DNA from: Planctomycetota bacterium
GTDB taxonomy: Bacteria; Planctomycetota; Planctomycetia; Pirellulales; Lacipirellulaceae
DNA length: 64,000 bases
Assembly: GCA_029259915.1 (NCBI GenBank)
Contig: JAJDED010000007.1
Location: 124,001-188,000 of the forward strand
Reading direction: 5' to 3'
Part shown: piece by piece, positions 6,411 through 54,348 of the stretch
Position numbering within the stretch: position 1 is the stretch's first letter
Layout of the letters: each line of letters begins with the position of its first letter
The notes under the pieces: model-generated
What the model was told of the DNA's origin: nothing
The model's database searches: none
The model's input: the letters and a program-made list of their open reading frames with translations, nothing else
Program-made: the position numbers and the translations under genes

Positions 6411-6643
6411 TTGAACAGGAGGAAACAGAGAATTGAATACTCTATAAGAGAACCGCCAAGAGCGCCAAGGGACTGTTTCTTTCGATTCCTTAAGACTCGC
6501 CTTTGAGTTGCTTATTGGATGTGGTTCTCTGTCTGGCAATGAATTTCTCCCACATTTCTTGGCGTACTTGGCGCTCTTGGCGGTTCATCTTTTCAGTTTA
6601 GATAAATAGATACTTCTCCGTTATCTCTGTTTTCTTCTGTTCA
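6411..6643. repeat. Nested intergenic palindrome
   Basis: The 313 bp between the CdsA-like gene and the next gene hold no gene but carry two nested inverted repeats. The outer arms are TTGAACAGGAGGAAACAGAG at 6411 and its complement ending at 6643. The inner arms are GAACCGCCAAGAGCGCCAAG at 6449 and its complement CTTGGCGCTCTTGGCGGTTC at 6568. The outer arm recurs at 53151. The arms are themselves made of repeated 8-9-bp words. Confidence 0.75.
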
Positions 6644-13897: not shown

Positions 13898-14080
13898 TTG
13901 AACCACTAAGGCACAAAGACTAAAAGAAAGACAAAGGAGTTGTTACGGATTTTTTGAACACTAATCAGCACTGATCTTCGCTAATAATCAGATTAGTGCG
14001 GATAAGCGCAGATTAGCGTTCCTCTTCCGAATTCTTAAAGGAGTTTGGTTTCTTCGTGTCTTCGTGCCTTTGTGGTTCAA
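13898..14080. repeat. Composite palindrome: GAACCAC arms around an ACTAATCAG palindrome
   Basis: The outer arms TTGAACCACTAAGGCACAAA (13898) and the complement-like GTGCCTTTGTGGTTCAA ending at 14080 enclose a second palindrome, 13956-14022, running from GAACACTAATCAGCACTG to CAGATTAGCGTTCC. The element sits between the 3' ends of two convergent genes. The same composite order recurs at 27414-27528. No gene is present in the gap. Confidence 0.75.
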
Positions 14081-18670: not shown

Positions 18671-18836
18671 TTGCCCGCGAATAACGCGAATAGACGCGAA
18701 TTTTGTACATGGAACACACTTGCAGGGGCAACGGTTTACTGTTTTTCGAAGTTTTCCTGAGGAGAAGATACGACCATAGCATATTGAAAGTCGCTCAGTA
18801 GGCAGCATTCGCGATTATTCGCGTGATTCGCGGGCG
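18671..18836. repeat. CGCGAAT-type inverted-repeat unit
   Basis: Inverted ~31-bp arms begin GCCCGCGAATAACGCGAAT (18673) and end with its counterpart ATTCGCGTGATTCGCGGGC (near 18835), with ~100 bp between. The right arm overlaps the C-terminal codons of the GxxExxY gene. The arms consist of three near-repeats of CGCGAAT. The remaining part of 18438-18670 holds no gene I can support. Confidence 0.7.
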
Positions 18837-19213
18837 CTCTTCTCCGACAAGGCAAATCGCTTAGTTTCCAACTTTGGGCAACCGCCAAAGTTGACCAGAA
18901 TTCCTAGCTGAAGACCACTTGCATGGAGATAGTTGATTACTTGTGCTTCATGCTTGTCAATCAATTGGTCTACTGCCTTTATTTCGATAAGAATTTTCTC
19001 GTAGCAAATAAAGTCCGGCTGATAGACCTGCTCTAAAATATGGTCACGATAGCGAAGTTTTAGTCTTGGCTGTGCAATAAACGGGATTTGCAGTTGAGTG
19101 AATTCTATCTCTAAGCACTCTTGGTAGACGGCCTCCAGAAAACCACTCCCTTGGTGATTATGGACCTCAAAGCAAGCTCCCATAATCTGGTAGCTTTCAT
19201 CGGGGTAGAGCAT
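18815..19213 (-). CDS. GxxExxY protein (PD-(D/E)XK nuclease-like family)
   Basis: This 132-residue protein carries the defining motif G24-F-L-E27-A-V-Y30, the preceding IMGACFEVHN helix, and PD67 ... E77-I-K79, a PD-(D/E)xK-like pattern. The family (TIGR04256-type) is of unknown biological role. The ATG at 19213 is chosen because MLYPDESYQIMGACFEV is the usual family start and GGGAG lies eight bases upstream. An in-frame ATG at 19294 would add residues translated from the flanking repeat. The last residues SARESRE and the stop are encoded by a repeat copy. The gene is enclosed by CGCGAAT repeats. Confidence 0.85.
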   Translation of the reverse strand: MLYPDESYQIMGACFEVHNHQGSGFLEAVYQECLEIEFTQLQIPFIAQPRLKLRYRDHILEQVYQPDFICYEKILIEIKAVDQLIDKHEAQVINYLHASGLQLGILVNFGGCPKLETKRFALSEKSARESRE

Positions 19214-19256
19214 CCACAAGACTCCCAGGCAGAAAATAAAGCTATCGAATAGACAA

Positions 19257-19291
19257 ATTATTCGCGTCCATTCGCGTGATTCGCGGGTACT
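19257..19291 (-). repeat. CGCGAAT repeat at the 5' side of the GxxExxY gene
   Basis: Read on the minus strand it is GTACCCGCGAATCACGCGAA followed by TGGACGCGAATAATT. It has the same orientation as the copy at the gene's 3' end (18806-18836), so the gene is also flanked by direct repeats. Confidence 0.75.
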
Positions 19292-19345
19292 CATCTGCGA
19301 GGAGGCTTCCGGTTCCCTGACCTCTCACCTCTGAATCCTGACCTC

Positions 19346-25198: not shown

Positions 25199-25268
25199 GG
25201 AACACGAATCGTCGCTAATTTACACTGATCGGACTTTATTAGCGAAGATCAGCGCAGATTAGTGTTCC
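25199..25268. repeat. Palindromic element, ACTAATCAG family
   Basis: The arms GGAACACGAATCGTCGCTAA (25199) and CAGCGCAGATTAGTGTTCC (ending 25268) are imperfect complements around GGACTTT. It belongs to the same word family as the centres of the elements at 13956 and 27444. It lies 33 bp upstream of coaD. Confidence 0.7.
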
Positions 25269-25951: not shown

Positions 25952-26033
25952 GGAACACTAATCGACGCTAATCGGCACTGATCTGATTTTAGGGCTTAGG
26001 ACGTAGGATGCGTGCAGCGGAGCGTAACGCACC
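25952..26033. repeat. Single ACTAATCAG arm followed by a GTGCAGCGGAGCGTAACGC repeat
   Basis: GGGAACACTAATCGACGCTA at 25951 is one arm of the palindrome family without its partner. Thirty bases on, GTAGGATGCGTGCAGCGGAG and CGTAACGCACC (26003-26033) match a short intergenic repeat that I know to be widespread in unrelated bacteria. Between 25520 and 25950 I see no gene. Confidence 0.5.
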
Positions 26034-27413: not shown

Positions 27414-27528
27414 ACCACAGAGGCACAGAGAACAGAGAGAGAAGAACACTCATCAACACTAATCTTCGCTAATCTGAAGTATTTGCGAAGATAAGCGTTC
27501 AATAAATTTCTTCTATGTGCCTTCATGC
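27414..27528. repeat. Composite palindrome: ACCACAGAGGCACAGAG arm around an ACTAATC palindrome
   Basis: The left arm ACCACAGAGGCACAGAGAAC (27414) is followed by a palindrome AGAACACTCATCAACACTAA ... GATAAGCGTTC (27443-27500) and a right arm TTCTATGTGCCTTCATG. The order matches 13898-14080. The right arm contains the stop codon of the minus-strand gene at 27523. The rest of 27189-27413 shows no gene. Confidence 0.65.
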
Positions 27529-51191: not shown

Positions 51192-51342
51192 TGCCCGCGA
51201 ATTACGCGAATGACCGCGAATAGGAAGTAATTACAAGCATTTCTTTTTTTGAGATTTTCTCGACGATCCGCGGTGATACAGCATATCGAGAAATCATCCT
51301 GTATTCGTCTTATTCGCGAATATTCGCGCTATTCGCGGGCAA
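51192..51342. repeat. CGCGAAT inverted-repeat element without a gene
   Basis: TGCCCGCGAATTACGCGAAT (51192) and the inverted ATTCGCGCTATTCGCGGGCA (ending near 51341) enclose about 80 bp with no coding frame. The centre has a TTTTTGAGATTTTC/ATACAGCATAT pattern loosely like the centre at 18704-18805. It is a smaller version of the element at 18671. Confidence 0.7.
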
Positions 51343-54291: not shown

Positions 54292-54348
54292 GGTGCAAAG
54301 CATTTCAGGCAAAGTTCTGTTCTTTGTGCCTTAGCGCCTTTGCGAGAG
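54272..54348. repeat. CGCAAAGGCGCTAAGG inverted repeat
   Basis: The arms CTCACGCAAAGGCGCTAAGG (54272) and CCTTAGCGCCTTTGCGAGAG (ending 54348) are near-perfect complements, with a CTTTG/CAAAG extension inside. The stop codon TAA of the preceding lipoprotein gene is part of the left arm. It resembles the word-type repeats elsewhere. Confidence 0.8.

Follow-up and report, generated by a model that had tools for sequence, protein, structure and literature searches.

Genes encoding GxxExxY proteins lie between inverted DNA arms that are built of short, spaced heptamers. This association is established computationally and leaves very little room for doubt. The original prediction expected an excess of matched arms near such genes, and the excess was large in both gene sets. 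Enclosure was scored as the best ungapped inverted match between the 250-nt flanks, with a threshold of 13 or more. Among relatives of the home genome, 75 of 85 GxxExxY genes (88%) were enclosed, compared with 1 of 320 control positions in the same loci (0.3%; Fisher p about 1e-69). A set from other phyla contained 51/79 enclosed genes (65%) versus 4/568 enclosed controls (0.7%; Fisher p about 1e-50). By record title, this set covers roughly ten or more phyla, including Acidobacteriota, Bacteroidota, Pseudomonadota, Desulfobacterota, Chloroflexota, Calditrichota, Verrucomicrobiota and Nitrospinota.

The arms are not equally common around all genes: none of the 20 PIN-domain genes used as negative family control was enclosed. 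RAYT genes are an accepted partnership of a nuclease with repeats, and RAYT-type Y1_Tnp genes served as positive control. The same pipeline found 17/20 of them (85%) enclosed. The inverted arms at these 17/20 planctomycete loci with RAYT-like genes (L414-L433), such as GCCCCAACGGGGC...ATAGCCCAGGG, are REP-like (GCCCC/CCCAGGG), and a CRCNNAN pair within 250 nt was present at 0/20. The pipeline therefore detects the established partnership about as often as the GxxExxY one, with unrelated arms, and it is GxxExxY to which the CRCNNAN arms belong.

The GxxExxY gene and its arms in the window

The window, the whole analysed stretch of 64,000 nucleotides, encodes a GxxExxY protein of 132 amino acids on the minus strand (18815-19213), identified by profile matches (TIGR04256 and PF13366, PDDEXK_3) and an AlphaFold2 model. 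The open frame of the gene reaches 159 amino acids (18815-19294, minus strand) because the 5' arm reads through. This arm (19260-19288, minus strand) is of the CCCGCGAATCACGCGAATGGACGCGAAT type and has three CGCGAAT heptamers with gaps of 2 and 3 (triplet 19260-19285). A further arm at the 3' end of the gene (18807-18835, minus strand; triplet 18807-18832) is oriented as the 5' arm. As proposed, it codes for the final residues of the open reading frame (ARESRE) and the stop. The outer arm (18673-18701, plus strand; triplet 18676-18701) is inverted to both other arms. The gene had been described as surrounded by inverted CGCGAAT arms. This is correct for the arms starting at 18671 and 19257, but the arms that hug the gene, at 18807 and 19257, have one orientation and so form direct repeats. 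The outer arm closes a gene-carrying unit (18673-19288) and also a gene-less inverted unit (18673-18835). Since the gene-flanking arms are direct and inversion is confined to the arm at 18671, 18673-18835 is a complete inverted unit of the gene-less type, with the gene and one arm beside it. In relatives, the simple layout is arm, gene and inverted arm.

A gene-less unit with the same arms had been noted at 51192-51342 and is present there (51193-51340, no strand assigned). Its inverted arms occupy 51193-51221 (plus strand) and 51312-51340 (minus strand), with triplets at 51196-51221 (plus) and 51312-51337 (minus). The CGCGAAT triplets are not a product of chance, because, when up to 3 mismatches were allowed, the 4.2 Mb home genome contained 11 matches to the triplet and none to a reversed control pattern. 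Two gene-less units have another arm type, CACTAAT/CGCTAAT; one is 60 bp long with gaps of 2-3 (13959-14018) and the other is located at 25203-25264. Lone arms are of the CGCCAAG type (6558-6582, minus strand), the CGCAAAG type (54322-54344, minus), the CACGAAG type (14052-14074, minus) and the CACTAAT type (25956-25982 and 27447-27473, both plus).

Empty sites were compared via rpsT orthologs. The window element is absent from 11 congeners, but a clean junction was not obtained because gene order is rearranged there. Between the 5' arm of the GxxExxY gene and rpsT, a tandem stretch with a period-7-like pattern (CCTGACCTCTCACCTCTGAATCCTGACCTC, 19300-19345) resembles a lone arm of the four-helix-bundle type. 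One congener (G003, L239) has an inverted gene-less period-7 unit with GATGTGA repeats 3' of rpsT, the neighbourhood of the GxxExxY element in the home genome.

The proposed PD-(D/E)xK-like pattern was confirmed. The window protein scores 136 bits with TIGR04256 (curated cut-off 35) and 136 with PF13366 (cut-off 22), and its active-site residues are intact: E27, D67, E77-x-K79 and Q91 are invariant or nearly so across 65 sequences. The AlphaFold2 model (pLDDT 93, pTM 0.86) has its nearest fold in the Cas4 protein SSO0001 (Foldseek E 1.8e-4, probability 1.0; Z 10.4), followed by lambda exonuclease. The PDB contains no sequence relative of the protein. By its active site and its modelled alpha/beta/alpha core, the protein is a predicted member of the PD-(D/E)xK superfamily. 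Fold and motif suggest a nuclease activity. The likeness to the branch of Cas4 and lambda exonuclease concerns the fold and the E..D..ExK..Q order of the active site. Unlike this branch, the GxxExxY protein has about 130 amino acids, carries no further domain and sits between repeats. A CRISPR context was not seen in the loci examined. GxxExxY genes are under purifying constraint (pN 0.10-0.22 versus pS 0.70-0.92).

Arm types, paralogs and co-occurrence in genomes

The home genome (G000) has seven GxxExxY genes, each paralog in a single copy. Besides the window gene, five paralogs have their own matched arms, each with another heptamer. Four of them show clean inverted pairs (CACGGAG, CGCCAAG, CACGACG and CGCAGAG) and one has a degenerate pair of the CACAGAT type. 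Direct search revealed no clear arms for the seventh gene (L006). By the common grammar, each arm repeats C-R-C-N-N-A-N about three times at a spacing of 1-3 nt. ACC-CRCNNAG triplets occur 196 times in the home genome, in three main types. No matching GxxExxY gene was found in the 93%-complete MAG for the abundant CACRAAG class of arms (gaps 1,1). Its gene may be missing from the MAG, may have been lost, or a gene of a near type may act in trans. CRCNNAN arms were assignable to 135/167 genes at a 1% null threshold. About one fifth of the GxxExxY genes have no clean CRCNNAN pair; some are one-armed or have other heptamers, for example ACAGGAT.

Genes and arms occur together. Among 59 genomes, 46 had gene and arms, three the gene only, one arms only and nine neither (p 1.7e-7). 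The arm totals were 3013 in genomes with a GxxExxY gene and 3 in genomes without. Two of the three gene-only genomes (G049 and G056) have at least one gene with differently worded arms or tandem repeats such as ACAGGAT. Arm counts per genome range from few to 348, and dozens to hundreds of gene-less copies are typical. With genome size and the counts of Y1_Tnp, TIGR02436 and DUF559 held constant, the partial rho with arms over the 59 genomes was 0.58 for GxxExxY and -0.03 for Y1_Tnp.

The type of heptamer goes with the protein lineage and not with the host, as shown by a tree of 135 proteins. Base 7 of the heptamer changes 10 times on this tree, compared with 49.3 times for shuffled labels, and is G in all 71 proteins on one side. 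The window protein groups with a G030 protein that also bears CGCGAAT arms; other paralogs of the home genome group with same-arm proteins from other genomes. Arms and gene are inherited together, and the tree match alone would therefore also follow from linkage. Linkage could not yield the genome-wide matching of gene-less units, however. In 26 gene-less units from 13 genomes, the heptamers fitted the gene types present in the same genome more closely than gene types from elsewhere (p 0.0005). Of the 16 genomes with a homolog at 50% identity or higher, 10 had two or more exact CGCGAAT triplets, versus 4/43 others (p 8e-5). G034 has 74 CGCGAAT arms, and its 52% homolog has CGCGAAT arms; G002 has 15 such arms but no homolog of 50% or more. 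Tree-independent protein-arm pairs for a residue-by-residue recognition code number only three.

Structure and dispersal of gene-less units

The length of units is bimodal, mostly 60-180 bp without a gene and 400-550 bp with a gene. The gene-less unit of the window folds into a stem with internal loops on the spacers (RNA z -6.4, DNA z -5.4). Stem pairing as the purpose of the arms was considered and rejected: in gene-less units, same-rung and different-rung matching were 836 and 833 ± 6. Gene-carrying units had a slight same-rung excess (991 versus 972 ± 6). Spacers are more diverged than heptamers in gene-less units. Since heptamers are not kept as pairing partners and spacers diverge more, the arms read as arrays of putative sequence-specific binding sites with a spacing of about one helical turn.

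The unit at 51193-51340 is homologous over its full length to two other units of the home genome (C47:33495 and C30:14663), and a deletion form exists (C32:74844). These homologous gene-less CGCGAAT units occupy unrelated sites. Syntenic stretches of the congeners G018 and G030 (about 80% identity) have different units at the same intergenic sites, while GxxExxY gene units are at orthologous sites in both. Gene units look old and sessile, and gene-less units look like the dispersing part. The suggested parallel to autonomous and non-autonomous elements applies insofar as gene-less units share genomes and gene types. It fails for the gene-carrying units, whose sessile appearance makes RAYT/REPIN a better parallel than an autonomous transposon with MITEs.

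The idea that gene-less units arose from gene units by internal deletion was discarded, as 35 gene-less and 95 gene-carrying units had no interior similarity. A k-mer excess indicative of a target-site duplication was absent at the arm boundaries of 188 units, although the units may end elsewhere: in some CGCGAAT units, sequence similarity continues beyond the arms. In Sphingomonas parapaucimobilis an element splits fabD-fabG, and S. paeninsulae has none at this site. An element in Bacteroides finegoldii splits radA and its neighbour, with none in Parabacteroides. Both junctions are not base-exact because the compared genomes belong to different species. Carriage was seen in none of 50,697 phage records, in one IMG/VR contig and in 8/72,556 plasmid records. 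Repeats of about 90 bp common to G018 and G030 were considered as GxxExxY units and proved to be other repeat families. Both genomes contain a dispersed palindrome of about 90 bp, GTGGGAGGGGTCTCC...GGAGACCCCTCCCAC, which is unrelated to CRCNNAN (L181:14303-14392, L171:5215-5304, L171:10715-10803 and L201:6237-6329).

Candidate mechanism, alternatives and related families

The GxxExxY protein and the triplet-heptamer arms probably form a REPIN/RAYT-like partnership of nuclease and repeats with an unrelated enzyme, in which the protein would recognise the arms and spread gene-less units. Arm recognition and spreading are preferred because of the RAYT/REPIN analogy and the poorer fit of the passenger and pairing models. 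Protomers would recognise the heptamers sequence-specifically, three per arm and 8-10 bp apart, which is roughly one helical turn. The bound protein would bring both inverted arms together, and the nuclease may nick or cut at or near the arms. Acting in trans, the nuclease would thereby copy short gene-less units, or move them, to other intergenic positions and leave no detectable target-site duplication. The gene would remain a mostly vertical single-copy source with occasional relocation or transfer.

Both systems have single, distinct nuclease genes adjoining inverted repeats and many gene-less inverted doublets per genome, about 60-150 bp long. In both, the repeat type is tied to the gene, and the nearest relatives of each gene are in other genomes (PMC3116915). 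By analogy, the dispersal pattern is that of RAYT/REPIN, with a sessile source gene and dispersing doublets. The enzyme is a predicted PD-(D/E)xK protein (Cas4-like) in one case and an HUH/Y1 enzyme in the other; the repeats are CRCNNAN triplets in contrast to GTAG- or CGTC-tagged REP palindromes. GxxExxY genes are enclosed by inverted repeats that are shared with dispersed doublets, but an enclosed Y1_Tnp gene and a GTAG/CGTC tag were not found. Because HUH transposase and GTAG/CGTC repeats are absent, the system is REPIN/RAYT-like in behaviour and not a member. Terminal inverted repeats, characteristic of MITEs and classical transposons, are present in GxxExxY units. TIRYT/TIRtron elements also have a gene within inverted repeats, some of them belonging to dispersed repeat families as well. 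Theirs is a tyrosine transposase gene, and the part of the source used here describes no heptamer grammar (PMC3733652).

It is unlikely that the protein has a domesticated host function, binding or cutting the arms in chromosome or RNA biology (nucleoid, repair, transcript processing), with the gene arms as operators and the dispersed units as sites kept by selection. The strong purifying constraint, the orthologous gene positions, the single copy of every paralog and the hairpins of units in intergenic space agree with such a role. The distribution argues against it: it is patchy, and whole genomes, even within the same genus (G013), lack gene and arms. Several types coexist per genome, arm numbers vary from few to 348, and congeners have different units at the same intergenic sites. 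There is only a small chance that GxxExxY genes are passengers between arms that are mobilised by a different transposase, either RAYT/Y1_Tnp or a DDE enzyme. Y1_Tnp genes are present in 54/59 genomes, and their uncorrected number shows a weak correlation with that of arms (rho 0.40), but the partial correlation is -0.03. G044 is without Y1_Tnp yet has 3 GxxExxY genes and 21 arms. Moreover, Y1_Tnp genes have their own unrelated arms, with 0/20 CRCNNAN pairs within 250 nt, and the arm type tracks the GxxExxY protein tree.

An RNA-level element, whose transcribed stem is processed out and whose protein either has RNA as its target or shields the element, is similarly improbable. The model would be the intervening sequences (IVS) of 23S rRNA. 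The Coxiella IVS of 428 nt has a TIGR02436-like ORF, reportedly preceded by three tandem heptamers, and is excised by RNase III (PMC4990558). It is similar in size (about 0.43 kb) and layout, with one small ORF, tandem heptamers beside it and inverted ends, and it is called selfish (PMC4990558). The strong RNA fold of the gene-less unit (z -6.4) would fit as well. However, the IVS protein is unrelated (TIGR02436, S23/four-helix-bundle), the repeats have a period of 7 and the IVS is known from rRNA (PMC4990558), whereas the GxxExxY element is intergenic and has spaced triplets and a nuclease fold. The window ORF is a PF13366 gene and not an S23/four-helix-bundle ORF inside 23S rRNA. The window element lies outside rRNA; Rfam had no match within 16000-53000. 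The model of the protein has the fold of DNA nucleases. In gene-less units, heptamers that face each other as pairing partners agree no more closely than other heptamers do. Together with spacers in which mismatches are free to drift, this points to sequence recognition.

Other small gene families have arms of their own. TIGR02436 four-helix-bundle genes in relatives (L203-L232) were enclosed in 24/28 cases (86%, score 13 or more). Their arms are period-7 tandem motifs (TCAGCNN, AGTGGNN, GAGTTGC and others), and CRCNNAN triplets on both sides were found at 0/28. The tandem heptamers in front of the TIGR02436-like ORF of the Coxiella IVS (PMC4990558) fit these arms. DUF559 (PF04480) is the third family of small genes to show a repeat grammar of its own: in relatives (L376-L394), 17/19 loci were enclosed by arms of the CCCTCNCCC/GGGAGAGGG type, and a further arm-enclosed locus is L172 10538-11054 (reverse complement). 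Tentatively, unrelated small families (GxxExxY, DUF559, four-helix-bundle S23 and RAYT) may have independently captured inverted arm pairs, each with its own grammar, and seeded genomes with copies that lack the gene; they would make up a general bacterial class of genes that host repeats. For GxxExxY, this would mean that a Cas4-like PD-(D/E)xK nuclease spreads DNA without HUH, DDE or recombinase chemistry, and its heptamer recognition code would diversify between paralogs.

A very large number of genomes have annotated GxxExxY proteins, for which, to our knowledge, no role is known. A literature search for GxxExxY, PDDEXK_3, PF13366 or the repeat strings, which covered neither subscription journals nor preprints, returned no report on a link to repeats and GxxExxY named only in other contexts. 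If the link holds, the GxxExxY family gains a function. A large group of intergenic repeats that has had no name so far, present in Planctomycetota, Acidobacteriota, Bacteroidota and others, would also be explained. The matched arms and proteins provide over a hundred natural protein-site pairs for deriving a recognition code. The REPIN/RAYT way of life would then have evolved with an unrelated nuclease.
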